Shown here: positions 1 to 13,496 of the stretch, in pieces
How the letters are laid out: each line of letters begins with the position of its first letter
Position numbering within the stretch: the stretch's first letter is position 1
Assembly (NCBI RefSeq): GCF_000621705.1
Contig: NZ_JHXO01000005.1
Coordinates: forward strand, 372,001-436,000
DNA length: 64,000 nt
Reading direction: 5' to 3'
Origin: Prolixibacter bellariivorans ATCC BAA-1284
GTDB taxonomy: Bacteria > Bacteroidota > Bacteroidia > Bacteroidales > Prolixibacteraceae
The notes under the pieces: model-generated
The model's database searches: none
Seen by the model: only the letters and a program-made list of their open reading frames with translations
Told to the model about the DNA's origin: nothing
Made by a program: the position numbers and the translations under genes

Positions 1-854
1 ACTACGGTATTGTTCCGGAAGATGTATACACCGGTCTTAACTACGGCGAGAAAAAGCACGTTCATGGTGAGATGGACGATGTGTTGAAAGGCATTGTTGA
101 TGCAGTGATCGAGAATAAAAACAAGAAGCTTTCTACTGCGTGGGAAGAATCTGTAACCGGAACGCTGGACGCGTATCTTGGTGACTTGCCGACAAAATTT
201 GAATACAAAGGGAAAGATTATACTCCGAAGACTTTTGCCAACGAATATTGTGGATTGAATCCTGATGATTATGTAGAAATTACTTCGTTTACGCATCATC
301 CTTTCTACTCGAAGTTCAAACTAGAGGTCCCCGATAACTGGGAGTGGGACGAAGTGTATAATGTTCCGCTGGACGAGATGATGAAGATTATCGACAATTC
401 GCTGAATACCGGTTATACCGTTGCCTGGGCTGCCGACGTGAGCGAGAAAGGATTTTCTACTTCGAAAAAAGGTGTGGCAGTTGTTCCGGATGCAGACGTG
501 AAGGATATGACAGACTCGGAGCTTTCAAAGTGGGAGAAACTGACCGCAAAAGAGAAAAAAGAGCAACTCTACAAACTGGATAAACCCGGAAAAGAGAAGC
601 ACATTACCCAGGCAATGCGCCAGGAAGCATTCGACGATTGGCAAACAACCGACGATCATGGAATGCATATTATTGGTTTGGCTAAAGATCAGAATGGCAC
701 CATGTACTACAAAGTGAAAAACTCGTGGGGTGATTACAATTCATACGATGGGTATTTTTATGCATCCAAACCTTATGTTCGTTATAAAACGACTTGTATC
801 ATGGTGAATAAGAACGCTATTCCACAAGATATCAGGAAGAAGCTTGGACTTTAA
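1..854 (+). CDS. C1-family aminopeptidase, bleomycin hydrolase/PepC-like (5' truncated)
   Basis: The frame is already open at base 3, so the gene starts before the window and only about 283 C-terminal residues are seen. The visible part carries two catalytic blocks of papain-like aminopeptidases: the His in DDHGMHIIGL (near base 660) and the Asn in KNSWGDYNSYDGYF (near base 720), followed by the family's typical C-terminal tail. The nucleophilic Cys would lie upstream. Such enzymes trim peptides from the N-terminus. A secretion signal cannot be judged because the start is missing. A strong hairpin terminator follows. Family call is secure; substrate is unknown. Confidence 0.85.
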   Translation, partial: YGIVPEDVYTGLNYGEKKHVHGEMDDVLKGIVDAVIENKNKKLSTAWEESVTGTLDAYLGDLPTKFEYKGKDYTPKTFANEYCGLNPDDYVEITSFTHHPFYSKFKLEVPDNWEWDEVYNVPLDEMMKIIDNSLNTGYTVAWAADVSEKGFSTSKKGVAVVPDADVKDMTDSELSKWEKLTAKEKKEQLYKLDKPGKEKHITQAMRQEAFDDWQTTDDHGMHIIGLAKDQNGTMYYKVKNSWGDYNSYDGYFYASKPYVRYKTTCIMVNKNAIPQDIRKKLGL

Positions 855-878
855 AATAAGGACCAAAAATATGCAGAA

Positions 879-914
879 GAGGTTGCAGGTTCAGATCCTG
901 CAACCTCTTTTTTT
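879..914 (+). terminator. Rho-independent terminator of the C1 peptidase gene
   Basis: An 11-bp perfect stem GAGGTTGCAGG / CCTGCAACCTC (879-889 with 897-907) is followed by seven T, 25 bp after the stop codon. Confidence 0.9.
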
Positions 915-924
915 ACATGAAAAA

Positions 925-951
925 GCCCGGTATGATTGCCGGGCCTTTTTT
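925..951. terminator. Second, probably bidirectional terminator
   Basis: Stem GCCCGG (925-930) / CCGGGC (939-944) with A's on the left and T's on the right. It can stop leftward transcription from the repeat-protein gene ending at 1020 as well as read-through from the left. Confidence 0.7.
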
Positions 952-1019
952 GAAGAAAATCGAAAAACTAACTCACTTGTGCTGTATGCTTACTAAAATC
1001 TCTGTATTGAAAATTATAT

Positions 1020-1475
1020 TTATTGTATTCCCCAGTATTTATTCGACGTCATCCAGTTTTCCAGTGCCAGTGTTTGGTCGGCTGCCTTATCAGAACCCAT
1101 CCAGTAGTCGTTAGAGGTCATCCAGTTTTGGACGGTCAGCGGGCTATCTGAAACTTCTTCATTTTCATTCACACCCCAGTAATTTTCATTGCTCATCCAG
1201 TTCTCAATATTCAGCTGGTTATCTTGTTCGCTTCCGGTCCAATAGTCGTCGTTACTCATCCATTCTTCTACCTCGAGATTATTATCGGTTTCTGCAGTAG
1301 TTTTCATATCGGAGAATAATTCTATTGAAGTATTGGTGAGACTGGCAGCAGGTGAAAGCATAGCGATGAATGCTGAAATTCCCTGAGCATTGGCAATACT
1401 TGTTACACTTACTGTTAAAACTATCATGATGGTAGCGATGACCTTTTTGGTTGATTTTAATACTTGTGCTTTCAT
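1020..1475 (-). CDS. Exported W-M-x4-Y-W repeat protein A (uncharacterised)
   Basis: This 151-residue protein has an N-terminal hydrophobic signal (about residues 11-30, ending near ANAQG), an Ala/Ser-rich linker, then four copies of an acidic unit with the pattern L-x(4)-W-M-[ST]-x(3)-Y-W at W72, W93, W118 and W141. Examples are LEVEEWMSNDDYW and LALENWMTSNKYW; unit spacing is 21-25 residues. I do not recognise a named family. The conserved Trp/Met/Tyr/Trp set suggests a surface-exposed binding or self-assembling repeat, which is inference. A sigma-54-type promoter element lies 57 bp before the start and tandem 16-bp dyads lie about 91 bp further upstream, the same arrangement as for the paralogue at 2027-2422. 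An ABC transporter and sigma-54 activator under the same signals are encoded nearby. Confidence 0.8.
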   Translation of the reverse strand: MKAQVLKSTKKVIATIMIVLTVSVTSIANAQGISAFIAMLSPAASLTNTSIELFSDMKTTAETDNNLEVEEWMSNDDYWTGSEQDNQLNIENWMSNENYWGVNENEEVSDSPLTVQNWMTSNDYWMGSDKAADQTLALENWMTSNKYWGIQ

Positions 1476-1518
1476 GGCTTTATTTTTTTACTTGCTTTTT
1501 GTCCGTTTGCCCAGATGC

Positions 1519-1535
1519 AACAGTTTGCGTGCCAA
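1519..1535 (-). promoter_or_regulatory. Candidate sigma-54 promoter P1 (repeat protein A)
   Basis: Minus strand reads TTGGCACGCAAACTGTTG. The -24 element TGGCACG is canonical. Ten bases after the GG comes TGT instead of the usual TTGC, so the -12 part is imperfect. Predicted start is near 1509, giving a leader of about 34 nt. Three other copies in this block have the same spacing. Confidence 0.6.
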
Positions 1536-1601
1536 ACATTGTATTGTGCTTATTTATAGGTGCTAGTGTGGTGTGGTAGATGTTTGTAGCGCGTATAATT
1601 T

Positions 1602-1638
1602 TGACCGATTTGGAACACGTCATGTACGATTTCGAACA
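1602..1638. promoter_or_regulatory. Tandem activator sites A1 and A2 (16-bp dyad)
   Basis: A2 at 1623-1638 reads TGTACGATTTCGAACA. A1 at 1602-1617 reads TGACCGATTTGGAACA, 13 of 16 identical and exactly 21 bp (two helical turns) away. A2 starts 91 bp upstream of the GG of P1. The dyad recurs upstream of P2 and P3, so these are most simply enhancer sites of the sigma-54 activator encoded at 6469-7842 (inference). Confidence 0.7.
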
Positions 1639-1747
1639 GAATGAATGGAGTTCTCGATCGTTATATACTGCCTTTTATAATCTGATTCGGGGTACGAACG
1701 TGATGGTGATGTGAGAGATCGTGAAAATGTTGGTTGTTTTAGCGAGG

Positions 1748-1773
1748 AAAAAAATGCCCGGAAACGCCGGGCA
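1748..1773 (-). terminator. Rho-independent terminator, minus strand, inside a gene-free stretch
   Basis: Stem TGCCCGG/CCGGGCA (1755-1761 with 1767-1773), followed on the minus strand by seven T. No coding gene ends just upstream of it on that strand, which points to a non-coding transcript. Confidence 0.8.
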
Positions 1774-1868
1774 CTCTTTCAATACAATTACTTAATAACT
1801 GGTGCTGTAATCAAAATTTAAAACCAATCTTTTTATATCTTGAAAATTATTTCTTGTTAAACGGTATA
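1750..1868 (-). ncRNA. Candidate small RNA, about 120 nt
   Basis: A -24-type promoter element (1879-1895) and a perfect terminator (1748-1773) bracket a stretch of the minus strand with no credible reading frame (only a 5-codon ATG frame near 1872). The start point near 1868 is extrapolated from the promoter spacing. No activator dyad precedes it, unlike P1 and P2; the A1/A2 sites lie on the other side of the terminator. Expression is not shown. Confidence 0.4.
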
Positions 1869-1878
1869 TTTCATGTTA

Positions 1879-1895
1879 TACATAAAGTGTGCCAT
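1879..1895 (-). promoter_or_regulatory. Candidate sigma-54 promoter P4 (small RNA)
   Basis: Minus strand reads TATGGCACACTTTATGTA: TGGCAC, then a TG exactly where P1, P2 and P3 have it. It does not precede a coding start. The rest of the gap between 1476 and 2026 shows only the A1/A2 sites and terminators. Confidence 0.45.
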
Positions 1896-1966
1896 AATTT
1901 GTCTTTTGCTGAGGTGAAATGTAGAATCATGAAGGAGGTTATTTCATTCATCGCATAAGAAAAATA

Positions 1967-1988
1967 AAACCCGGAATAATCCGGGTTT
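1967..1988 (-). terminator. Terminator of repeat protein B gene
   Basis: Perfect 8-bp stem AAACCCGG / CCGGGTTT (1967-1974 with 1981-1988), followed on the minus strand by a T-rich run, about 40 bp after the stop codon at 2027. Confidence 0.8.
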
Positions 1989-2026
1989 GGGGTATATTGA
2001 ATTACAGGAGAGGGCACGCTGGGTGT

Positions 2027-2422
2027 TTATTTTCCACTCCAGTAATGGTCATCTTGCATCCACTTTTCTACTTTGAGAGGTTCTTCCTCAATTACTGAGG
2101 GATTAAGTAATGCATCACATGGTTGACCTGTCCAGTAGTAGTCGCAATACATCCACAATTCAACGTTCAATTCATTATCTGTCTCGAAGCGGGTGAAGAC
2201 GACGTCCCGTCCGAAATTCTCTTCCATTTCAGCGTTACCCAGCTGAACGTTATTTTCAGATGCTTCGATGGCTGCCGAAGAGGTTTGAGATTCATTCAAA
2301 GCCAGTTGCTCAGATGAGCTTTGTGAATGAGCCTGAAAAACGAATGCCAGACTCAGAAGAACTGCCAAAAGGACTGCTGCCAGTTGGTGGTTCGTTTGTG
2401 TGGTTAATACTCTTGTTTTCAT
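2027..2422 (-). CDS. Exported W-M-x4-Y-W repeat protein B (uncharacterised)
   Basis: I start this at the ATG at 2422 rather than an in-frame ATG 75 bp earlier, because the protein then opens with a classical signal peptide (Lys/Arg, then LAAVLLAVLLSLAFVFQA) and the promoter lies at the same distance as in the paralogue. The 131-residue product has a Ser/Glu-rich linker and two repeats, LNVELWMYCDYYW and LKVEKWMQDDHYW, matching the unit of protein A. Two Cys (in the first repeat and just after it) could form a disulfide. No known family is recognised. Shared promoter and activator sites tie it to protein A and to the ABC transporter operon. Confidence 0.8.
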   Translation of the reverse strand: MKTRVLTTQTNHQLAAVLLAVLLSLAFVFQAHSQSSSEQLALNESQTSSAAIEASENNVQLGNAEMEENFGRDVVFTRFETDNELNVELWMYCDYYWTGQPCDALLNPSVIEEEPLKVEKWMQDDHYWSGK

Positions 2423-2464
2423 TTTATGGCCCTCTTTGTTTTGATTGTTAATCACCAACCATAA

Positions 2465-2481
2465 AACATGATGTGTGCCAT
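2465..2481 (-). promoter_or_regulatory. Candidate sigma-54 promoter P2 (repeat protein B)
   Basis: Minus strand reads ATGGCACACATCATGTTT. GG at 2478-2479 lies 56 bp before the chosen start codon, against 57 at P1 and 58 at P3. The -24 box is strong; the -12 box has TG but not GC. Confidence 0.6.
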
Positions 2482-2568
2482 AGTTTTTAACTATCACGTA
2501 GTTAATGTATTGTGAGTGCTCTGTGTTTTGTCTGCAGTATGAAAAGTGAACGGATTAGTTCGTTCGGT

Positions 2569-2584
2569 TGTGCGAATTCGAACA
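2569..2584. promoter_or_regulatory. Activator site B (16-bp dyad)
   Basis: TGTGCGAATTCGAACA, beginning 91 bp upstream of the GG of P2, exactly the distance of site A2 from P1. A weaker partner may lie near 2547. The rest of 2585-2877 shows nothing I can interpret. Confidence 0.7.
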
Positions 2585-2877
2585 AAATCTTCCTTTATGT
2601 TGAAATAGGTTTTTCTTTAATTGTCGTTGGCTAATTAGGTTATGGGACTAACTAAATTATACAACCCTGAAATTCGACAGGAAGAAGGCTAGGAGCGTTA
2701 AGGGGAAAAGTGCCTGTACCTGTCTTTTATTATATCGAATTACTTTTTGCATCATGTTACACAGAAATCTGTCTTCTATGCGAGTAAAATTTTGAGTTTA
2801 TAAGTTAGGTCGTATTGCTGTTGTTAATGGAGTGTGTGTGAGTCTGAGTCTGGATGGACTCCTGTAATAAACAGCAA

Positions 2878-2909
2878 AGGGGAGGAAAATCTTTATGGTT
2901 TCCTCCCCT
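2878..2909 (-). terminator. Terminator of the ABC transporter operon
   Basis: An 11-bp perfect stem AGGGGAGGAAA / TTTCCTCCCCT (2878-2888 with 2899-2909) lies 26 bp beyond the permease stop codon. The T tract after it on the minus strand is short. Confidence 0.65.
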
Positions 2910-2934
2910 GACTATTTGATGTGGCATCATGTTT

Positions 2935-5457
2935 TTATTCGTAACGAAGAGATTCGGCCGGATCGGCATTAATTGTTCTCCATAACTGACGGTAAACAGT
3001 GAATATGGCAATAGCAAACACAGCTGCTGAAACGAACAGATAATTGGTGACGCTAAGATTAACCTGGTAGGCGAACCTCGATAGCCATAATCTGGATATT
3101 TGGTAAGCGAGCGGAAGCGCAAGCAGACTGGCAAGTATGACTAATTGAAGCGTCTCCTTCGACAGAAGGAAAACCAATTCGCGTGTACCAGCCCCTAATA
3201 CCTTCCTGATACCGATCTCTTTGGTCCGGTAAACGGTTATTAGTGCCATCAATGAATATAAGCCCATGCAGGCAATAAAAATGGCGAAGAATGAGAATGC
3301 AACGGCTACCTCACCAGTTGAGCGTTCTTCGGTGTACTGTTTTTGCAGGTTATCCGACATGGAGAACTCACTAAATAGTGTGGTTGGGTTTTCCTCTTCC
3401 CATATCTTTTGAACTTGAGCAATGTCTTTATCGGTAGGTGGTGATGAAAACCGTATAGAGGTAAATCTGCTGAATCTTGGGACTTCCGGTAGAAAAACCA
3501 TGGGCTGTACTTCCTCGTGAAATGATTCGAAGTGAAAATTCCGCACTACACCCTTAATGGTATATTCAACTTGATCGCCATTTTGAAGAAGCCTGATGAG
3601 ATGTGCCCCAACCGGATTTTTTAATCCCATGTATTGAACTGCTTTTTCATTGACGACTACATTGATTGGTTGAGCTACTTGCTTCGAATTTTTGTGACGA
3701 AGAGTATCGTTGCTGTGGCTGATCGGCTGTTTGGGTTCAGCCGATTCTCCCGGAATAGATTTTGTCGAATCGATAAAATGCATCCCATAGGTCTTCAGAA
3801 AATGATTATCTGCCCAGTTAACCTGCAATAAATAATTCTGGTTGGTTGAATCGTTCGTTTTGTGGAAGGTATACATGTCAATAAGTTGCCCCGGCACCGA
3901 ACTTGAGTACGACAGATCTGTAACATGCGGCAAATCTTTTATTCGTTCAGTGAATTGTGCACGATTGTCGCCTAGTCCGGTTGAATTATCGAGTACCAGC
4001 AAATTATTCTTATCAAAACCAATACTCTTTGATTGGATGAAGTTGAGCTGCCGATAGATAGTTGAGGTTGAGTAGATGATGACAATGGAAAAAAGGAATT
4101 GAAGAATTACTAAAACACCTCGTAATCCTTTGGCACGCGGCCCCAGTTTTTTCTGGTTTTGCAAAATGGTTGCCGGTGTAAAGCGTGTAACATAAAAGGC
4201 TGGATACAAACCAGCAAGTATGCCGGTAATTAATGCAATTCCAAATATGATTGGTGAGAGTTTGAGCAACGATTGAGATAATGACGGACTCGAAAATTGA
4301 TACATCTTTTCGAGCTGAGGAAAAGCCAGTTCAACAATTACCAGGGCCAGAAATAGTGAAATAAAACTTATGGTAATTGATTCAGCCAGAAATTGACGGG
4401 CCATATCTCTCCGGTGCGATCCCAGGAGTTTTCGAATACCTATTTCGCGCGTTCTTCCAGCTAATCTTGCCGTTGATAGGTTGGCATAATTGATGGCAGC
4501 GATAAGAATGATAAGTAATGAAATTGCCCCAAGGACAATGAGGGTTTCAATATTCGCATTCTTCGACATTTCGTAGTTAAGATGCGAGAATAGGTGTATT
4601 CTTCTGATTTGTTGTAGTTTAATAACAAAATTATTCCCCATGTTGTGGAATTCCTGGGGTGTCATTTTAGTGTTTTGTTCAATTTCTGGTGTAGCCGCAT
4701 CCAGGAATGCGCTTTGAAGTTTCATTTCAATGTTGGTCACTCCGCCTATGTCATTTTGCGGAGCGGGCTTATTCATATCAACTCCGGGTTTGAACCGGTA
4801 ATATGTGTAAAGAAAGCTGGTCAGCCATGAATTATCTGGAAGCTCTAATGTGGACAGAGAAACCAGTGCACTGTATTGCATGTGCGTATTGTAGGGGCAG
4901 TCTTGCACCACACCGGTAATGGTCCATTCCGTGTCATTTTCCGAAATAATCTTTTTGCCTATGGCACCTTCCGGGTAGTAGGTTTTTGCCATTGACTCCG
5001 GAATAACAATGCTTTTCTCTTTTGACAAACAGGTGGCCGGATTGCCTTGCAGTAGTTTGAAGCCAAACATGTCGAAGAAGGTGGAATCGACGAACAGAAG
5101 GGATGGAGCATTCAGTATTTCTCCGTTTTGGGTCTTTAACAGTATTTTTCGTTCACTTTTACTAACACGGCATGCCTGCTCAATTTCCGGAACACGCTTT
5201 TTTAAACCAAAGGCAAACTTCGGGGAGGTAACTGCAAAATTGGTTCCGATGCTTCCCATTTTTGATTCGATGATGACCCGGTAAAGCCTGTCATCATCCG
5301 GATGAAAATCATCAAAGTGGGTTTGGGTCCACACATGAAGCATGACCAGGATGGCGCACGCCATACCTATAGCTAATCCAAAAGTATTGATGAAAAAATA
5401 ATCCTTGTTTCGACGCAGGTTGCGGATAGCCAGCTTTATGTAGTTTTTGGTCATCAT
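2935..5457 (-). CDS. FtsX/MacB-type ABC transporter permease
   Basis: An 840-residue inner-membrane protein with duplicated architecture: an N-terminal membrane segment (about 22-45), a periplasmic MacB-like domain, an FtsX core with three segments around residues 300-430, a further segment near 445, a second periplasmic domain, and a C-terminal FtsX core near 695-840. Both cores carry the coupling motif REIGIRKLLG / KEIGIRKVLG. Such permeases work with a LolD/MacB-like ATPase as mechanotransmission machines rather than passing substrate through the membrane. The ATPase gene lies 13 bp upstream on the same strand. The pair shares regulatory sites with the two exported repeat proteins, which could be its cargo or effectors (inference). 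The start has two consecutive ATGs. Confidence 0.9.
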   Translation of the reverse strand: MMTKNYIKLAIRNLRRNKDYFFINTFGLAIGMACAILVMLHVWTQTHFDDFHPDDDRLYRVIIESKMGSIGTNFAVTSPKFAFGLKKRVPEIEQACRVSKSERKILLKTQNGEILNAPSLLFVDSTFFDMFGFKLLQGNPATCLSKEKSIVIPESMAKTYYPEGAIGKKIISENDTEWTITGVVQDCPYNTHMQYSALVSLSTLELPDNSWLTSFLYTYYRFKPGVDMNKPAPQNDIGGVTNIEMKLQSAFLDAATPEIEQNTKMTPQEFHNMGNNFVIKLQQIRRIHLFSHLNYEMSKNANIETLIVLGAISLLIILIAAINYANLSTARLAGRTREIGIRKLLGSHRRDMARQFLAESITISFISLFLALVIVELAFPQLEKMYQFSSPSLSQSLLKLSPIIFGIALITGILAGLYPAFYVTRFTPATILQNQKKLGPRAKGLRGVLVILQFLFSIVIIYSTSTIYRQLNFIQSKSIGFDKNNLLVLDNSTGLGDNRAQFTERIKDLPHVTDLSYSSSVPGQLIDMYTFHKTNDSTNQNYLLQVNWADNHFLKTYGMHFIDSTKSIPGESAEPKQPISHSNDTLRHKNSKQVAQPINVVVNEKAVQYMGLKNPVGAHLIRLLQNGDQVEYTIKGVVRNFHFESFHEEVQPMVFLPEVPRFSRFTSIRFSSPPTDKDIAQVQKIWEEENPTTLFSEFSMSDNLQKQYTEERSTGEVAVAFSFFAIFIACMGLYSLMALITVYRTKEIGIRKVLGAGTRELVFLLSKETLQLVILASLLALPLAYQISRLWLSRFAYQVNLSVTNYLFVSAAVFAIAIFTVYRQLWRTINADPAESLRYE

Positions 5458-5470
5458 GATACTATGACGA

Positions 5471-6160
5471 TTAAATACCGGTTGGAACAGTAAAATTTTC
5501 GGTCACAACATGGCCATCGAACAAATGAATAATGCGCTGAGCTCGCTGAGCCTGCATTTTTGAATGAGTGACCATGACAACGGTAGTTCCTTCTTCGTTT
5601 AAACTGGTCAGCAGTTGCATGATTTCTTCACCATGCGTACTGTCGAGGTTTCCTGTCGGCTCATCTGCCAAAATGATGCGTGGACGGCTGATGATTGCTC
5701 TGGCGACAGCTACTCTTTGCTGTTGACCTCCTGAAAGTTGTTGAGGAAAGTAGTCAGAGCGGTGCCCCAGATTAAAGCGGTCAAGCAGATTATTTACTCT
5801 TTTCGTGCGCTCTCCGGAATGTATTTTCTGATAAATTAATGGTAATTCGATGTTCTCTCTCACGGTCAGTTCATCGATAAGGTTGAAGCTTTGAAAAACA
5901 TATGAGAAACTTTCTTTTCGGATATCGGTGCGTTGACGTTCGGTTAGATGTGACACTTTTCTGTTGTCAAGGTAATAGGTGCCTGATGTTGGGGTTTCTA
6001 TTAATCCAATGATATTCAATAGGGTAGTTTTTCCACAACCGGAAGGTCCCATTACACTGACAAATTCTCCTTCATCGATTTTTAGGTTTATGTTAGTTAA
6101 TGCTCTGGTTTCCACTTCTCTTGCAGTGAAAATCTTAGAGATATCTTGTAAGTTTATCAT
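5471..6160 (-). CDS. ABC transporter ATPase, MacB/LolD-like
   Basis: A complete 229-residue ATPase: Walker A GPSGCGKTT (residues 38-46), signature LSGGQQQRVAVARA, Walker B IILADEPTGNLDS, and a switch His in MVTHS. It powers the FtsX-type permease encoded 13 bp downstream, and the two genes form one operon. The promoter element P3 lies 58 bp before the start codon, and tandem activator sites lie farther upstream in the region shared with the divergent sigma-54 activator gene. Confidence 0.92.
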   Translation of the reverse strand: MINLQDISKIFTAREVETRALTNINLKIDEGEFVSVMGPSGCGKTTLLNIIGLIETPTSGTYYLDNRKVSHLTERQRTDIRKESFSYVFQSFNLIDELTVRENIELPLIYQKIHSGERTKRVNNLLDRFNLGHRSDYFPQQLSGGQQQRVAVARAIISRPRIILADEPTGNLDSTHGEEIMQLLTSLNEEGTTVVMVTHSKMQAQRAQRIIHLFDGHVVTENFTVPTGI

Positions 6161-6204
6161 AAGTTATATAGTTCGAATGCTTTTATCGCTTTATGACTGA
6201 TGCA

Positions 6205-6221
6205 ACCATGAATTGTGCCAA
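6205..6221 (-). promoter_or_regulatory. Candidate sigma-54 promoter P3 (ABC transporter operon)
   Basis: Minus strand reads ATTGGCACAATTCATGGTTG. Canonical TGGCAC, and a TG at the position shared by P1, P2 and P4. The leader to the ATPase start would be about 35 nt. Confidence 0.6.
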
Positions 6222-6272
6222 TTTACAACAGTCATATAATCAGTTAAATATATTTTTGTGTTTCATTTTTTG

Positions 6273-6309
6273 TGTGCGATTACGTACAGTCCCTGTTCGA
6301 ATTCGTACA
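6273..6309. promoter_or_regulatory. Tandem activator sites C1 and C2 (16-bp dyads, 21 bp apart)
   Basis: C1 (6273-6288) is TGTGCGATTACGTACA; C2 (6294-6309) is TGTTCGAATTCGTACA. Start-to-start distance is 21 bp, so both lie on one helix face. They sit between the ABC operon and the activator gene and could serve both. The remainder of the gap between 6161 and 6468 shows only P3. Confidence 0.75.
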
Positions 6310-6468
6310 TTTATTTCAGTTCCTGAAAGTACAGAAAATTTATTTTAGTAAATTGCATCTATTGAGTATGTGTTGATAGTTACCTGATTAGGATTAAGAA
6401 ATAATTTGACTGCGCTACACGGTCTGAATTGTGGCTTAATACTTGTGAATGCCAGTAAAAAACTACCT

Positions 6469-7842
6469 ATGGAAAAATTTGGGAAGATTCTTGTTGTAGA
6501 TGACAATGAGGATATTTTATTCTCTCTTCGCCTGCTGTTAAGGCAACATGTCGAAAAGGTAACCACTGAAAGTGATCCTGGGAATATTCCCGTTTTACTG
6601 AAAAAAGAGGAGTTTGATGTCATTCTGCTTGACATGAATTTTACTAAGGATGCCATCAGCGGACAGGAAGGTTTTTTCTGGTTGCAGAAAATCCTGGAAA
6701 TTGAACCATCGGCAGTTGTCCTTTTCATTACGGCCTATGGTGATGTGGAAAAGAGTGTCAGGGCAATTAAAGAAGGTGCGACTGATTTTATTCTGAAACC
6801 CTGGCAAAATGAGAAGCTTCTGGCAACCGTCAATTCAGCCCTAAACCTTTGTAAATCGAAAAGAGAACTGGCCCAGCTGCGTATTCGCCAGCAAGCGATA
6901 AACCGGGTGATGAATAAATCATTTGCCGATTTCGTGGGTAAATCACCAGAGATGCAGGACGTTTACGATTCCATCAGTAAGGTGGCCGAAACGGATGCCA
7001 GCGTGTTGATTCTCGGTGAAAATGGTACGGGAAAAGAGCTGGTGGCGCGTGCGTTACATGCGAATTCACTTCGGAAAGATGAAACCTTTATTAGTGTGGA
7101 CCTGGGTGCTATCAGTGAGACACTGTTCGAAAGTGAACTTTTCGGACATGTGAAAGGCTCATTTACGGATGCGAAAGTGGACCGGCCCGGACGTTTCGAA
7201 ATAGCTTCCGGAGGAACCCTGTTCCTGGACGAGATAGGCAACCTTTCGCTCCCTTTGCAGGCCAAGCTACTGACAGTGCTTGAACGAAGAGAAGTATTGC
7301 GTGTGGGCTCAAATAAACCCAAGCCAATTGATGTCAGACTGATTTGTGCGACAAATATGAATTTACCGCAGATGATAGCCGAAGGCAAATTCAGGCAGGA
7401 TTTACTTTATCGTATCAACACGGTTGAGGTCGATTTACCTCCGTTACGCGAACGCGATGGCGATATTCCGTTGTTGGCGAATCACTTTTTTGCGGTTTAT
7501 GTCCGGAAGTATAAAAAGGCTGTTCGGGGGATAACTAAAGATGCCATGCAGCGGCTTGAAGAATATAAATGGCCTGGAAACGTTCGGGAACTCCAACATG
7601 TGGTTGAAAGGGCGGTGATTATGAGTGAAGGTGAATGGATTAGCGCGGATGACCTTCAGTTACGTACCGTGTCCCAATCTAGTGAAGGGCTTGATCTGGA
7701 CAATTATAACCTTGATGAGGTAGAAAAAACAGTTATCCTGAAGGTGATGAAGATGCATCATGGTAATATATCCAAGGCTGCTTCGGAACTTGGCCTGACA
7801 CGAACCTCTCTTTATCGAAGACTTGAAAAATATGGGCTCTAG
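6469..7842 (+). CDS. Sigma-54-dependent response regulator (NtrC family)
   Basis: I start at the ATG at 6469 (MEKFGKILVVDDNED) because the receiver domain begins there; an upstream TTG would add 21 unrelated residues. Domains: receiver about 5-125 (acidic pair D11/D12, phosphoacceptor D55, T88, K110), AAA+ about 155-385 (Walker A GENGTGKE 183-190, Walker B LFLDEIG 251-257), and a Fis-type helix-turn-helix in the last 25 residues. The sigma-54-contacting loop reads GSFTDA (230-235) rather than the classical GAFTGA. The kinase gene overlaps its 3' end. I infer that it binds the dyads at 1602-1638, 2569-2584 and 6273-6309 and drives the neighbouring -24 type promoters. Confidence 0.93.
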   Translation: MEKFGKILVVDDNEDILFSLRLLLRQHVEKVTTESDPGNIPVLLKKEEFDVILLDMNFTKDAISGQEGFFWLQKILEIEPSAVVLFITAYGDVEKSVRAIKEGATDFILKPWQNEKLLATVNSALNLCKSKRELAQLRIRQQAINRVMNKSFADFVGKSPEMQDVYDSISKVAETDASVLILGENGTGKELVARALHANSLRKDETFISVDLGAISETLFESELFGHVKGSFTDAKVDRPGRFEIASGGTLFLDEIGNLSLPLQAKLLTVLERREVLRVGSNKPKPIDVRLICATNMNLPQMIAEGKFRQDLLYRINTVEVDLPPLRERDGDIPLLANHFFAVYVRKYKKAVRGITKDAMQRLEEYKWPGNVRELQHVVERAVIMSEGEWISADDLQLRTVSQSSEGLDLDNYNLDEVEKTVILKVMKMHHGNISKAASELGLTRTSLYRRLEKYGL

Positions 7843-9193
7843 GAATTTTCGACTTTCCGTTGTACTAAGGGTATTGGCCCTGATTGCTACTATCGTGCTG
7901 ATGGTGGTTCTCTTTCTGTTGACAGATTACTATCTGACCAGCTTATTGGTACTGATAGTGCTGATTTATGAGGTATATTCACTGATATCGTTTGTCGAGA
8001 CAACCAATACCTTACTGACTAACTTTCTGGAATCCCTTCGGTATTCCGATTTTTCGCGCACATACGAAATTTCCGGTGCCGGGAAATCATTTGACCGGTT
8101 AAACGAATCATTTAATCAGGTTATCAGTGATTTTAGAAAAGTTCGTGAAGAGCGGGAGCAAAATTATTTCTATTTGCGGACAGTAGTTGAACATATAGGT
8201 ATTGGGTTAATCGCTTATCGTCAGAATGGTGAGGTTGAGTTGATAAATAATGCCACAAAAAAATTATTTCAGCTTGTGCAGTTGAATAATCTGAAGGAAT
8301 TGGAATCGGTTTCACCGGAACTGATGAATGGTCTAATGAATATTAGTAATGGCGATAATATTCTGGTTCGGATAAGGGCGAAAGATGAAATTTTGCAATT
8401 GGCTATTTATGCCACAGAGTTCAAAGTGTCTGATAAGAATATTCGTCTCGTTTCCATCAAAGATATCCAAAGCGAGTTAGAAGAGAAGGAGATGGAGAGT
8501 TGGCAGAAACTTATCAGGGTGCTGACGCACGAAATCATGAACTCCATCACGCCCATTGCTTCGTTGACTCAAACGCTTGATTATTTGATTAAGGATGTTC
8601 GTGAACGATATGATAATATTTTTTCTGACGAAGGGGAAGCCGAAGTCGTTGAGGAGGTTGAAATGGCGTTGAAAACGATTCATAAGAGAAGTACGGGTTT
8701 GCTTCATTTCGTCGAATCGTACCGGAACCTGACACGGATTCCCAATCCGAATTATTCCATATTTTCAGTGAGTCGATTGTTCGAGACGATTTCATCGTTG
8801 ATGAAAGAAGAAATTCACCGGAAGGGAATTACCTGTGAGGTGAATGTAGAACCACCCAACCTGGAGCTTTCGGCCGACGAACAACTCATCGAACAGGTTA
8901 TTATTAACCTTGTCCGGAATTCCATTCAGGCGCTTGAAAAAACGGATAATCCGCGAATTTCGATGAAGTCGTTACTGGATCAACGCGGTCGGATTTTGAT
9001 ACAGATTTCTGATAACGGACAAGGAATTCTACCTGAAGTATTGGATAGAATTTTTGTACCTTTCTTCACTACGAAACCAAAGGGTAGCGGCATCGGGTTA
9101 AGTTTGTCAAGACAGATTCTGCGACTTCATGGCGGAACATTAACAGTGCATTCCGAACCGGACGTGGAGACAATTTTTACCCTCCGGTTTTAA
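7832..9193 (+). CDS. Sensor histidine kinase, cognate of the sigma-54 regulator
   Basis: Starting at the ATG at 7832 gives 453 residues and an 11-bp overlap with the regulator gene, which signals translational coupling. Two membrane segments (about 10-30 and 34-54) leave almost no periplasmic loop, so the signal is probably sensed in the membrane or cytoplasm. A PAS-like region follows (about 100-210), then a His box LTHEIMNSITPIASLTQ, N box INLVRNSIQAL, and ATP-lid motifs DNGQGI and GSGIGLSLS. The HEIMNSI His box and the gene pairing with an NtrC-type regulator are a common Bacteroidota layout next to FtsX-type transporters, where cell-envelope stress is a suspected input (inference). Confidence 0.9.
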   Translation: MGSRNFRLSVVLRVLALIATIVLMVVLFLLTDYYLTSLLVLIVLIYEVYSLISFVETTNTLLTNFLESLRYSDFSRTYEISGAGKSFDRLNESFNQVISDFRKVREEREQNYFYLRTVVEHIGIGLIAYRQNGEVELINNATKKLFQLVQLNNLKELESVSPELMNGLMNISNGDNILVRIRAKDEILQLAIYATEFKVSDKNIRLVSIKDIQSELEEKEMESWQKLIRVLTHEIMNSITPIASLTQTLDYLIKDVRERYDNIFSDEGEAEVVEEVEMALKTIHKRSTGLLHFVESYRNLTRIPNPNYSIFSVSRLFETISSLMKEEIHRKGITCEVNVEPPNLELSADEQLIEQVIINLVRNSIQALEKTDNPRISMKSLLDQRGRILIQISDNGQGILPEVLDRIFVPFFTTKPKGSGIGLSLSRQILRLHGGTLTVHSEPDVETIFTLRF

Positions 9194-9205
9194 CCGAAAA
9201 AATTT

Positions 9206-9859
9206 ATGATGGGACGTTGGTGGTGGAAAAATTTGATAAAGTGGCTATCGGGGATGCTCCTTGCCGGATTTTTGCTTCTGATAGCTGGTTATTTTATTAT
9301 TTCTGCGTATTCCCAGCCCTATCTGTATCAGTCGCTGACTGAAATTCCCGAAAATAAATGCGGGCTTGTTCTGGGAACGAGTAAATATGTTGCGGAAGGG
9401 ACCGAAAATCTGTTCTATCGTTACCGGATAGAAGCTGCTGTTCGGCTCTACAAAAGCAAGAAGGTTCGATATCTGATTGTGAGTGGCGATAACCGTTACC
9501 GGAATTACAACGAGCCGGTAACCATGCAAAAAGATTTGGTGGAGGCTGGTGTTCCGGTTAATCATATCTATCTTGATTATGCCGGTTTTCGGACTTTTGA
9601 TTCCGTGGTACGCTGCCGCGAAATTTTTGGTCAACAGAAATTTACCATCATCAGTCAGCCTTTTCATAACGAGCGGGCCGTTTTTATTGCCCGTACAAAG
9701 GGGATAGAAGCCATTGGTTACAATGCACGCGAAGTCTCCGGAGTGCCGGCCTGGAAAGTGCACATACGCGAAGCTGGTGCGAGAATACGGGGATATTTTG
9801 ATTTGTTGACGGGCGCTCAACCCCATTTTCTGGGTAAAAAAGTGACTATTCCTGATTGA
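9206..9859 (+). CDS. SanA/YdcF-like membrane-anchored DUF218 protein
   Basis: A 217-residue protein with one N-terminal membrane segment (about 14-34) and a DUF218 core: GLVLGTSKYVAEG, YLIVSGDNRYRNYNEP, VPVNHIYLDYAGFRT and FTIISQPFHNERAVFIAR. This matches SanA, a periplasmic-facing protein linked in enterobacteria to envelope barrier function and vancomycin resistance at high temperature; the reaction is unknown. It begins 12 bp after the kinase stop, so it is probably co-transcribed with the two-component genes, consistent with an envelope-stress role. Confidence 0.85.
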   Translation: MMGRWWWKNLIKWLSGMLLAGFLLLIAGYFIISAYSQPYLYQSLTEIPENKCGLVLGTSKYVAEGTENLFYRYRIEAAVRLYKSKKVRYLIVSGDNRYRNYNEPVTMQKDLVEAGVPVNHIYLDYAGFRTFDSVVRCREIFGQQKFTIISQPFHNERAVFIARTKGIEAIGYNAREVSGVPAWKVHIREAGARIRGYFDLLTGAQPHFLGKKVTIPD

Positions 9860-9967
9860 GTTATTTCTCCGATATCTTTGTAATTGTTACATTTAAGGTT
9901 AGTAAACCAAACGTAAAAGTGGAGTTGCCCAACTTTCTGCTTTTTCACTACCATCTAACTAAAGACA

Positions 9968-11344
9968 ATGAAAAAATATTCCGTTGTACATTTTCTAACT
10001 ATGTCGGTTGCGACAGGAGCTCTGGTGGCATCCTGTTCGAGTGCAAAAACACAGCCCACGGAAGATAACAACAAACATTCGCCCAATTTCATTATTCTGT
10101 TTGCCGACGATTTAGGTTACGGAGATTTAGCCTGTTATGGGCATCCAACGATTAAAACGCCTAATCTGGATAAAATGGCGTCCGAAGGGATTCGCTTGAC
10201 TTCCTTTTATGTTGCAGCGCCATCCTGTACTCCGTCGAGGGCGAGCCTGCTAACCGGGCGATTGCCCATGCGAACCGGATTACCGCGTGTGATTGGACCG
10301 GAAGCTTCCATTGGTCTGCCTGCTTCAGAGATAACGATTGCCGAGGCCTTGAAAGAGAAAAGGTATGCTACCATGTGCATCGGGAAATGGCACCTGGGCG
10401 ATCAGGAGAAGTTCAATCCGGTTAACAATGGATTTGATGAGTATTACGGACTTCTCTACTCGAATGATATGCAGCCGCCCTGGGTGAATACCGATAAACC
10501 GCTGGCACTTTATCACAATACTGAAGCGATTGAGCATCCGGTTATTCAACAAACACTAACGAAACGCTACACGGAATGGGGAACGAAGTTTATTCGCACA
10601 CATGCTGACAAACCTTTTTTTCTGTACCTGGCTTATTCCATGCCACACGTTCCCATTTTTGCATCGGATGAGTTTAAGGGACATTCGCGGGCAGGAGAGT
10701 ATGGTGATGTGATTGAAGAAATCGATTGGAGTGTCGGGCAGATTCTGGCTACGTTAAAAGAGCTGGGACTCGATGAACGCACGATGGTTGTATTTTCGTC
10801 TGACAACGGACCATGGCAGGAGATGCCTGACCGGATGTTTGGCAATGACTCTGTCCAGCCATGGGATTGCGGAAATACCGCTGGATTACGTGGGCATAAG
10901 CACCTGACTTTTGATGGCGGCCAGCGAGTGCCGGGTATTTTTAGGTGGCCGGGAACGATTCCGGCGGGACAGGTTTCTGCTGATATGGCTTCAACGCTGG
11001 ATATTTTTCCGACCCTGTTATCTCTAGCGGATATTTCTATTCCGGAAGACAGGGTGATTGACGGTGTTAATATTATCGATTTTCTGGAAGGAAAAACTCC
11101 TTCACCAGTGCATCAGTTTTACTTTTACCGGCACGAAATGTTGCAGGCATACCGGAGGGATAGCTGGAAATTGCGATATCTTCCAAATGAAAAAAATCCT
11201 GAGAAATCAACTCTTCAACTTTTTAACATGGATTCAGATCCGTATGAGATGTATAACCGGGCGAAGGAATTCCCTGAAAAAGTCGAGGAAATGACTCGTA
11301 CGATGAGTGATTTCGATGAACAATTAAGGGAGTCTCTGCAATAG
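9968..11344 (+). CDS. Sulfatase (S1 family), lipoprotein
   Basis: 458 residues. A lipobox-type signal LVASC places a lipidated Cys at residue 23. The metal-binding start FADDLGYGD (D47, D48), the formylglycine site C87-T-P-S-R, GKWHLG and SSDNGPW are all present. The Cys-type motif means it needs a formylglycine-generating enzyme or anaerobic maturase, not seen in this window. It would remove sulfate from a glycan or small sulfate ester; the substrate cannot be read from sequence alone. A TATCTTTG box (9873-9880), the Bacteroidota -7 consensus, precedes it. The esterase gene 96 bp downstream may share its transcript. Confidence 0.9.
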   Translation: MKKYSVVHFLTMSVATGALVASCSSAKTQPTEDNNKHSPNFIILFADDLGYGDLACYGHPTIKTPNLDKMASEGIRLTSFYVAAPSCTPSRASLLTGRLPMRTGLPRVIGPEASIGLPASEITIAEALKEKRYATMCIGKWHLGDQEKFNPVNNGFDEYYGLLYSNDMQPPWVNTDKPLALYHNTEAIEHPVIQQTLTKRYTEWGTKFIRTHADKPFFLYLAYSMPHVPIFASDEFKGHSRAGEYGDVIEEIDWSVGQILATLKELGLDERTMVVFSSDNGPWQEMPDRMFGNDSVQPWDCGNTAGLRGHKHLTFDGGQRVPGIFRWPGTIPAGQVSADMASTLDIFPTLLSLADISIPEDRVIDGVNIIDFLEGKTPSPVHQFYFYRHEMLQAYRRDSWKLRYLPNEKNPEKSTLQLFNMDSDPYEMYNRAKEFPEKVEEMTRTMSDFDEQLRESLQ

Positions 11345-11440
11345 TTTTGTCGGCTTTTTGAGTTCATAATTCTTGTTAAAACAGTCTGCAGGCTGCCAGG
11401 AATCATTATTTTTATCCATTCAATACGTAATAGTTATCCT

Positions 11441-12568
11441 ATGAATTTCCGAAAAGCTCAGCTCTCTCTCGTTTTCACCATTGTAATTCTCTTTCATTTT
11501 AAGGCTTTTGCCGGACAACCGGAGAAGCAATTTATCGATGCCGCTAATCCGGCTATTCGGTATGTAGGGCGGATTGATTTTTCAAACAAGGAGAACCCTC
11601 GGTTTGACTGGCCCGGAGTCTATATCCAGTTTCAGTTTACCGGAAAATCATGTGCGGTGAAAATGAGTGATACACGACATGATTATTTTCAAGTGTTGGT
11701 TGATGATTTATCTGCTAAGGTAATGAAGGTGAATAGCGATACGGTTTTGGTGATTGCTGAAGAACTAAAAAATGGGCTACACAGGGTTCAGATAGTTAAG
11801 AGGACAGAAGGTGAGCAGGGAACGGCAACTTTCAGTGGGATTTATTTGGATAAAGGCGCTAAAGTCTCTCCATGGCCTGAGATACCGAAACACAAGATTC
11901 AGTTCATCGGGAATTCCATTACCTGTGGCTATGGTGTGGAAGGAAAATCGAAAAATGAGCACTTCAAACCGGAGACGGAAAATAGTTATGAAAGTTATGC
12001 ACCCATAACGGCTCGAGCATTTGATGCCGATTATCACCTGGTATCTCATTCGGGCTATGGAGTCGTTCGGAATTATGGCTATAAAGAGAAAACTTCGCCC
12101 AACCCAATGCCTTCGAAATATGATCAGGTGTATGATATGAAGGAGGAGCCCAAGTGGGATTTCTCATCATGGATACCGGATGCAGTGGTGATTAACCTGG
12201 GAACTAACGATTTTTCCACCCATCCTTTTCCTGATAAGGCTGTATTTCAAAGAGGTTATGAGAATATGATTTTACAGGTGAAAAAGAACTATCCGGGGGT
12301 GCCGGTTTTCTGCATCGTTGGTCCCATGACAGACGAACCTTGTTATTCCTACGTAAAGGAGATGGTCGAAGCCTTCCGGGAGGTTCACAAAGTCAATAAT
12401 GTTTATTTTGTCGGTATTCCTACCTATTTGATGGTTTCTGACCATGATTTGGGGGCCGACTCTCATCCAAATTATTCCGGGCAAAAAAAATCAGCTGCAT
12501 TTTTAGTTCCGGTAATGGCTTCCGTTTTGGGGTGGTCGTACAGCGAGGATGAATTCAGACATAAATAG
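11441..12568 (+). CDS. CE2-like SGNH/GDSL carbohydrate esterase, secreted
   Basis: 375 residues with a signal peptide (to about residue 25, ending FAG). The N-terminal beta-sandwich (about 35-150: RFDWPGVYIQFQFTGKSC) is followed by an SGNH hydrolase domain with the nucleophile block IQFIGNSITCGYG, the Asn block VVINLGTNDF and the catalytic DSHPNYSGQ near the C-terminus. This two-domain order is that of carbohydrate esterase family 2, which removes acetyl groups from sugars. It sits between a sulfatase and a sialate O-acetylesterase, so a role in deacetylating a decorated polysaccharide is likely, though these genes are not in one clear cluster. Confidence 0.85.
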   Translation: MNFRKAQLSLVFTIVILFHFKAFAGQPEKQFIDAANPAIRYVGRIDFSNKENPRFDWPGVYIQFQFTGKSCAVKMSDTRHDYFQVLVDDLSAKVMKVNSDTVLVIAEELKNGLHRVQIVKRTEGEQGTATFSGIYLDKGAKVSPWPEIPKHKIQFIGNSITCGYGVEGKSKNEHFKPETENSYESYAPITARAFDADYHLVSHSGYGVVRNYGYKEKTSPNPMPSKYDQVYDMKEEPKWDFSSWIPDAVVINLGTNDFSTHPFPDKAVFQRGYENMILQVKKNYPGVPVFCIVGPMTDEPCYSYVKEMVEAFREVHKVNNVYFVGIPTYLMVSDHDLGADSHPNYSGQKKSAAFLVPVMASVLGWSYSEDEFRHK

Positions 12569-12697
12569 CTGAAATAGCAGAAGAATATATGGGTATAGCC
12601 TTGAGAATAGTTGGATTGATAGCAAATGTTTTTCTTCAACTGTATGTAATCAATCGATAAGTGTTAATAATATATGTAAGAATATATATTACTGGTA

Positions 12698-12727
12698 TTT
12701 GAATCTCTGAAAAAATATGTATTTTTG
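12698..12727 (+). promoter_or_regulatory. Bacteroidota-type promoter (TTTG-N18-TATTTTTG)
   Basis: TTTG at 12698-12701, 18 bp, then TATTTTTG at 12720-12727, close to the primary sigma consensus TTTG-N19-TAnnTTTG. It would give a leader of about 165 nt for the gene at 12898. The rest of the gap between 12569 and 12897 shows no other feature. Confidence 0.55.
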
Positions 12728-12897
12728 TGATATGGATTACCGTTTAGGTCTATCAGTTTTTTTTGGGAAAGCTACTTAAAATAGGGGTTTAATTTTATTG
12801 AAAGCTATCATCTTCCTGGAATAGAACAGTGACCTTTACTTATGCATGTGTATTATTTTGTGTGGATAGTTAACGTATTTCGAGAAATTCACTACTT

Positions 12898-13428
12898 ATG
12901 GATGAGTTTTTTTCGCCGGATGATGTGCGTAATTTTATGAACAGAAGTACAACCGATCGGCAACGGTTAATACTGTTTCTCTTATATAATTACGGTATTA
13001 CTGTACCTGAGATGATTCAGATAACTTCGGCCCAGTTTATGGTCAAGCGTGAATTTATTATTTTCAAATTTATCAGGGAGAGTACAAAGAAGGAACACCA
13101 CTATAAAATCCAATTTGAAAATTATCGCTTGTTTTATCGGGTTTTAAAGGGCCTTCAGGATCATGAGACTTTGTTACACAAAGATAAAAATATGCCAGTA
13201 TCGGAAGCATTGATTAAGAATGATTTATTTGATGTGGCTGTTACCATGAATCAAAAAATTACTCCCGGCAGTTTATTCGACAGTCATCTGTTTTGGCTGT
13301 TCCGAAAGGGGGTATCATTTCCGCAGGCTGTTGCTGAATATGGTATCTCGATGTCAGGGAAACCTTATAAAATATGGGAGAAAGCAATGCTAGCAGGTAT
13401 GCAATGGCCCTATTTGCTTGAACCATAG
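12898..13428 (+). CDS. Degenerate tyrosine-recombinase-like protein
   Basis: A 176-residue soluble protein without signal or membrane segment. Residues about 21-45 (RLILFLLYNYGITVPEMIQI) match the box I region of phage integrase/Xer catalytic domains, which reads LLYxTGLRxSEL, but the catalytic Arg is replaced by Thr. A later segment DSHLFWLFRKGVSFPQAVAE resembles box II (HxLRHTFAT) without its Arg, and a Tyr near the end (GKPYKIWEKA) falls where the nucleophile region would be. It is likely an inactivated recombinase fold that may still bind DNA; it is not a fragment, since start, stop and terminator are intact. No known name. Confidence 0.5.
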   Translation: MDEFFSPDDVRNFMNRSTTDRQRLILFLLYNYGITVPEMIQITSAQFMVKREFIIFKFIRESTKKEHHYKIQFENYRLFYRVLKGLQDHETLLHKDKNMPVSEALIKNDLFDVAVTMNQKITPGSLFDSHLFWLFRKGVSFPQAVAEYGISMSGKPYKIWEKAMLAGMQWPYLLEP

Positions 13429-13446
13429 ATTTGCATTGAACAAAAT

Positions 13447-13482
13447 AAAAACGGCTCGCATTTTATCGTGTGAGCCGTTTTT
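13447..13482. terminator. Bidirectional terminator
   Basis: Stem AAAAACGGCTC / GAGCCGTTTTT (13447-13457 with 13472-13482), A-rich on one side and T-rich on the other, between two convergent genes. Confidence 0.9.
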
Positions 13483-13496
13483 ATTTTGCTTTTTAA

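Follow-up and report, generated by a model that had tools for sequence, protein, structure and literature searches.

The left 9.2 kb of the window (here, the whole 64,000-nucleotide stretch of Prolixibacter bellariivorans DNA that we analysed) carries two repeat-protein genes and the genes of an ABC permease and its ATPase, with the genes of a regulator and a kinase running divergently from them (Table 1). A 16-bp dyad, TGTnCGAwTwCGnACA, recurs beside these genes, which raises the question of which protein reads it and which promoters it serves. Our answer, given with considerable confidence, is that the NtrC-type regulator whose gene lies at 6469-7842 is predicted to use the dyad as its enhancer (operator), and that the dyad defines a genome-wide regulon. 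The dyad copies, how they sit relative to promoters, how far they are conserved and which regulator helix goes with which dyad are all read from sequence; from them we infer binding, phosphorylation and activation as follows: the kinase (7832-9193) would phosphorylate the regulator, the active regulator would bind the dyads, mostly as tandem pairs 21-22 bp apart and ~70-160 bp upstream of -24/-12 promoters, and the bound regulator would drive sigma-54 transcription at nine promoters.

Table 1. Genes, dyads and sigma-54-type promoter elements at the left end of the window
Feature	Position	Strand	Remarks
Repeat protein 1, 151 aa	1020..1475	-	signal peptide, four acidic repeats with WM....YW ends
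Sigma-54-type element TGGCACGCAAACTGTT, repeat protein 1	1519..1534	-	
Weaker inner dyad TGACCGATTTGGAACA of repeat protein 1	1602..1617	+	21 bp from strong dyad
Strong dyad TGTACGATTTCGAACA of repeat protein 1	1623..1638	+	105 bp from outer start to GG
Repeat protein 2, 131 aa from ATG at 2422	2027..2422	-	exported, same family as repeat protein 1
Sigma-54-type element TGGCACACATCATGTT, repeat protein 2	2465..2480	-	
Strong dyad TGTGCGAATTCGAACA of repeat protein 2	2569..2584	+	105 bp from outer start to GG
MacB/FtsX-type ABC permease, 840 aa	2935..5457	-	Pfam FtsX and MacB_PCD
ABC ATPase, 229 aa	5471..6160	-	Pfam ABC_tran
Sigma-54-type element TGGCACAATTCATGGT, ABC pair	6205..6220	-	20 bases identical in two congeners
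Dyad TGTGCGATTACGTACA, inner site for ABC pair	6273..6288	+	
Dyad TGTTCGAATTCGTACA	6294..6309	+	21 bp from the 6273 dyad
Sigma-54-type element TGGCTTAATACTTGTG, before regulator gene	6432..6447	+	kept in two congeners
NtrC-type response regulator	6469..7842	+	receiver, sigma-54 ATPase, Fis-type HTH, helix LGLTRTSLYRR
Histidine kinase, 453 aa	7832..9193	+	two close hydrophobic segments, almost no loop

The dyads had been noticed in a sequence-only reading of the window, and pattern matching re-found them where that reading had placed them: four exact copies (starting at 1623, 2569, 6273 and 6294) and a weaker copy with two mismatches at 1602. Its spacing of exactly 21 bp within the pairs 1602/1623 and 6273/6294 is borne out by the coordinates, and the gene layout agrees with its statement that the sites flank the genes of two exported repeat proteins, an ABC transporter and the activator. 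The GG of the three leftward promoters lies on the minus strand at 1533/1532, 2479/2478 and 6219/6218; the distance from dyad start to GG comes to 91 bp at repeat protein 1 (1623-1532) and again at repeat protein 2 (2569-2478), as had been claimed for two genes, while the ABC gene gives 55 and 76 bp by the same measure. When up to three mismatches were allowed, the dyad was in no excess within the window (13 matches vs. a shuffle mean of 11.4).

The regulator has Pfam matches to Response_reg, Sigma54_activat and HTH_8, each above its gathering score. The kinase shows hydrophobic segments at residues 10-28 and 39-57 only, as judged by hydropathy rather than by a dedicated predictor; intramembrane-sensing kinases have two close helices with hardly any loop. 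Repeat protein 1 belongs to no Pfam or NCBIfam family. Each repeat protein has several Trp-Met motifs and an apparent N-terminal signal peptide, and the family is strongly acidic (net charge -12 to -31 and pI 4.05-4.32 in 15 of 16 sequences; -18 for residues 31-151 of repeat protein 1, counted by eye). The family had no match among solved structures, and a structure prediction for repeat protein 1 from six sequences was uninformative (mean pLDDT 41). We found the family in 99 out of 140 genomes of the host's own family (E <= 0.01) and, with the stricter E <= 1e-5, in just one of 396 genomes sampled more widely across the class, namely that of the window.

Elements fitting TGGC(A/T)(C/T)-N6-TG precede both repeat-protein genes, the ABC pair and the regulator gene in the window. 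Their -12 half consists of TG followed by T or G rather than the textbook TTGCA; at all nine promoters of the proposed regulon the distance from the GG to the -12 G is constant, and the base after TG varies (TG[T/G/C/A]). The stretch TGGCACGCAAACTGT of the repeat protein 1 promoter is present in two congeners too. There is one sigma-54 gene in the genome (a single PF04552 match over the cut-off).

The sequence-only reading had proposed a whole-genome search for the 16-mer with two mismatches allowed. We scanned the 5.15 Mb genome, scoring a place as promoter-linked when a correctly oriented TGGC element lay 40-180 bp away (TGGC-N8-TG, with the dyad upstream). The exact pattern gave 6 strand matches at 5 sites, four of which are those it was derived from and the fifth independent; the reversed pattern gave none, which puts the exact sites well in excess of chance. 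Two congeners, whose sites had no part in the derivation, contain 3 and 2 exact copies, with 0 for the reversed control in each. With up to two mismatches there were 79 strand matches (43+36) at 66 places, compared with 18+28 for the reversed control; of these places 64 were examined, the remaining two being the inner dyads paired with the repeat-1 and C8 sites. A promoter element was found at all five exact sites, at two of eight places with one mismatch and at 2/51 places with two mismatches (0/11 and 2/40), the last being the random rate (1.5% and 3.2%). Overall, 9 out of 64 distinct places had a promoter element, comprising seven regulon sites and two new ones at 105-bp spacing. The proposed link between dyad and TGGC element was thus upheld by the exact sites and by the search as a whole, and failed for the two-mismatch places taken alone. 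Among the 17 promoter-less places within L001-L024 (L006-L011, L014-L024), 14 lay inside a closed ORF of at least 100 aa.

Both new sites are intergenic, exactly 105 bp from the GG, and each precedes a gene for an exported protein on contig C2: one of 159 aa, which reached the cut-off of no Pfam family, and one of 240 aa with a TonB_C domain. The spacing was kept at 105-106 bp in 6/6 cases (own genome plus two congeners), and all seven paralogues examined had neither dyad nor promoter element. Since a looser 12-base dyad, TGTNCGNNNNCGNACA, with one mismatch was no commoner in the genome than its reversed control (92 strand matches each), weak single sites were left uncounted. The tandem 21-bp pattern occurred with 0-1 mismatch at six places, i.e., five regulon promoter regions and one place inside a gene, and with two mismatches none of the nine places examined (L225-L233, out of 16) had a promoter. 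Two chance-like tandem-dyad matches, near-identical to each other, lie 240 bp apart at a contig end (C7:87-115 and C7:327-355) and probably belong to a longer DNA repeat.

Altogether the regulon comprises nine promoters at eight places. The sites had been described as a local regulon, and this did not hold; they also occur on contigs C2, C8 and C9, making the regulon genome-wide. All four repeat genes found in the genome (two on C3, one on C2 and one on C9) have dyad and promoter. The ABC targets are the window's ABC pair and an operon on C8 in which an ATPase, two MacB_PCD/FtsX permeases, an HlyD adaptor and a TolC-type channel (OEP) follow in a row; with ATPase, MacB-type permease, HlyD-type adaptor and TolC-type channel in one operon, this is a tripartite exporter of the MacAB-TolC type. 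The remaining targets are the regulator and kinase genes and the two exported-protein genes on C2.

The dyad-promoter spacing recurs across these unrelated genes. Measured from the outer dyad to the GG, it is 105 bp at repeat proteins 1 and 2, 114 bp at both the C2 and the C9 repeat gene, 90 bp at the window's ABC pair, 104 bp at the C8 operon and 105 bp at each of the two new C2 genes, so that seven of the nine promoters fall at 104-105 bp (five) or 114 bp (two). The 6294 dyad, whose outer start gives the 90 bp to the ABC promoter, lies 139 bp from the GG of the regulator's own promoter, for which the two dyads are at 139 and 160 bp. An inner dyad 21-22 bp closer is detectable at seven of nine promoters, the exceptions being repeat protein 2 and the TonB_C gene; the weak copy at 1602 is an example of this second dyad, which is frequently degenerate. 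In congeners the spacing is 105 bp at both window repeat genes, 114-115 bp at the C2 and C9 orthologues and 90 bp at the ABC pair, and for the C8 operon it is 105 bp in G112, the only congener checked. With all five exact sites at promoters and this repeated spacing, the tie between dyad and sigma-54-type promoters that had been proposed from the window stands.

To follow the dyad beyond Prolixibacter, we used loci orthologous to the window's, with kinase identities of 65-70% in Mariniphaga-like bacteria and 55-59% in Marinilabiliaceae (Carboxylicivirga, Labilibacter). The scoring matrix was built from own-genome sites alone, with no Mariniphaga-like or Marinilabiliaceae-type site. The dyad lay between the ATPase and regulator genes in 12/12 Mariniphaga-like and 20/23 Marinilabiliaceae-type loci (8/12 and 18/23 at a stricter cut-off), counts that are not independent trials because the loci share ancestry; the other three of the 23 fell below the cut-off. 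In the Mariniphaga-like set there were 23 matches in 4,922 bp of this intergenic DNA vs. 1 in 170,519 bp outside it (~800 times denser), and in the Marinilabiliaceae-type set 37 in 10,132 bp vs. 4 in 358,624 bp (~330 times denser). None of 200 palindromic column shuffles of the matrix reached the Marinilabiliaceae-type count (18/23). The 23 loci include records titled Bacteroidales and Chlorobiota; of 45 loci collected with the kinase, 26 were mapped for dyads, 10 (L164-L172, L197) duplicate Prolixibacter or Mariniphaga-like loci, and nine (L193, L201-L208) were left out. Two dyad sites 21 bp apart were found in Rhodohalobacter, and the dyad is weakly present in Chryseolinea.

In favour of the regulon, repeat genes, exact dyads and a close orthologue of the kinase are all missing from one congener, G114. 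On the other side, among small exported-protein genes of Mariniphaga-like bacteria, two of nine have the window's dyad (the CG dyad) at 105 bp, whereas the other seven have a promoter and lack the CG dyad; in genus g6, dyad and promoter are both absent from the repeat genes at all 11 loci with a called gene. The repeat proteins are predicted to have joined the regulon in Prolixibacter and, to some extent, in Mariniphaga-like bacteria; given that these genes vary outside Prolixibacter, the constant core is formed by the regulator, the kinase and the ABC genes. Upstream of genes for exported proteins of 139-141 aa (L129-L135), a conserved AT-rich block, roughly TTTGTCAAnTTAATGTTACTAAT, precedes TGGCAC in place of the CG dyad and is perhaps the site of another activator.

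A sister NtrC-type system is common in the family. Its regulator has ~50% identity to the one studied here and is encoded divergently from a TolC-HlyD-ATPase-permease cluster; the regulator/TolC intergenic regions (L137-L163) contain a different dyad, TGTAAAA..TTTTACA (the AA dyad), in tandem 22-23 bp apart. Sister regulator and AA dyad make up a second, family-wide regulon to define.

Comparing the two systems bears on whether the neighbouring activator is incidental and the CG dyads are bound instead by a different enhancer-binding protein or by some unrelated dimeric regulator. The own genome does offer candidates, with six matches to the regulator at E <= 1e-20, i.e., five other activators, but none of these carries the helix LGLTRTSLYRR (two have LGITRQTLYNK, one LGIDRKTLYNK, one LGISERTLYRK and one no visible HTH). 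Moreover, the dyad tracks the regulator across families, and its type shifts with the helix. Loci whose regulator has the helix LGLTR[TSA]SLYRR show the CG dyad in 38 out of 41 cases and the AA dyad in one; those with RQTLYNK show the AA dyad in 22/26 cases and the CG dyad in none. For the latter, a strict expression found tandem AA dyads in 15/27 sister loci, and an AA matrix was built from these sites with the tested locus left out and applied to 26 loci (L152 dropped out because its stretch carries no regulator gene); the four below the cut-off were L155, L156, L158 and L137, whose dyad pair falls beyond the part scanned. We therefore regard binding by another protein as highly unlikely. 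The helix-dyad pairing is the best sequence-based evidence that the regulator reads the dyad: because the dyad is conserved beside it and dyad type pairs with helix, we consider it very probable that the activator works as an enhancer protein of the NtrC type for sigma-54, binding at the dyads. Conservation across genera and families together with this pairing supports the earlier assignment of the dyad to the neighbouring sigma-54 activator, as a prediction of binding. That the dyads are functionless, being chance matches or remnants inherited with duplicated promoters, can be practically dismissed: the four repeat genes include three paralogues (58-59% identity), whose promoters are hence not independent, but unrelated genes (two ABC operons, the TonB_C protein and the 159-aa protein) have the same dyad and spacing, and the dyad is kept in other families.

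With the neighbouring regulator as the probable reader of the dyad, the mechanism itself is a known one, while the regulon, the operator and the orphan exported protein family look new. In having a receiver, a sigma-54 ATPase, a Fis-type HTH, a neighbouring kinase and dyads ~70-160 bp upstream of -24/-12 promoters, the system resembles NtrC/ZraR/AtoC-type regulons; it differs from them in that the regulator scores below the curated cut-offs of the AtoC, ZraR, NtrC and other named models, the operator is different, and the targets are exported orphan proteins and MacB-type operons. To our knowledge, both operator and targets have been assigned for few sigma-54 activators of Bacteroidota. In the present case the regulator, its operator, nine promoters and the helix-to-operator pairing with the sister regulator are readable from sequence, and the regulon offers a directly testable way into this orphan family of acidic, exported repeat proteins. 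A regulon of this make-up was not found described in the literature searched, which was mostly without subscription papers and preprints.

Bce modules, which have OmpR-type regulators, are a second point of comparison. BceRS-BceAB and related systems are kinase/ABC peptide-detoxification modules of Firmicutes, according to the accessible part of PMC3023708. Common to both are an FtsX-type ABC transporter that counts among the targets and, next to it, a kinase with a scant extracytoplasmic part; the regulator here is of sigma-54 rather than OmpR type, for which reason we do not class the system as a Bce module, and exported repeat proteins are added. Sigma-54 control of MacB/FtsX-type permeases has been predicted in Bacteroidia (PMC12316311), i.e., for the same transporter class, sigma factor and taxonomic class; activator, operator and exported repeat proteins are given here and none in the part of that account available to us. 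The sigma-54 regulon of Flavobacterium psychrophilum, as outlined in the accessible text of PMC9723704, contains envelope-stress genes and exported proteins of unknown function; exported proteins under sigma-54 are thus shared with it, and in that text its activators are not assigned to sites.

As for the role of the regulon, we infer a response to envelope damage or membrane-active peptides, i.e., envelope stress, with the chances about evenly balanced. This appears the likeliest role because of the envelope and MacB-type targets, the kinase type, the PspC/PadR neighbours described below and the parallels in the accessible parts of PMC9723704 and PMC12316311. In other genera of the family, some repeat-family genes adjoin genes for a 110-aa PadR-type and a ~535-aa PspC/Toast-rack protein (L072, L077, L083, L139-L145 and others; assigned by Pfam for L142 only and at several other loci by gene length and order), hinting at a Psp-like envelope link.

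Alternatively, the repeat proteins may be modified-peptide precursors or substrates of the MacB-type transporters and no part of a stress response, which we consider unlikely. They do contain core-like repeats with aromatic residues, and the ATPase resembles those of the darobactin and lactococcin-972 exporters, although its scores of 278 bits (curated cut-off 375) and 235 bits (cut-off 255) fall short in each case; for the darobactin exporter DarBD the permease, too, stays below the cut-off, reaching 102 of 700 bits. Against a precursor role, the apparent signal peptide is found at the N-terminus of each repeat protein, no modifying enzyme was recognised by eye among ORFs of at least 90 aa at 1-14,000 (six window proteins were searched against families), and most repeat genes examined in the family sit away from the ABC pair. 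Returning to envelope stress, a more specific and rather improbable version is that the repeat proteins would be induced decoys trapping cationic membrane-active peptides in the envelope and would act together with two MacB-type transporters; a single sigma-54 switch would control them all, and its kinase would sense the transporter instead of an outside ligand. Such a system would amount to a Bce-like detoxification module that Bacteroidota have rebuilt with a sigma-54 activator at its centre. The strong acidity of the repeat proteins allows such trapping rather than demonstrating it.

Finally, the DNA between the two repeat genes of the window may encode a sigma-54-dependent small RNA (1748-1894, minus strand). 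This candidate matches no Rfam family over the gathering score, and the two congener loci have no upstream CG dyad at a matrix score of at least 11. The element TGGCACACTTTATGTA is identical in three Prolixibacter loci and is followed by a conserved stretch of ~120 bases in which no ORF is conserved and which finishes with a GC hairpin and a run of T, and the fold z-score of the candidate is -2.1.
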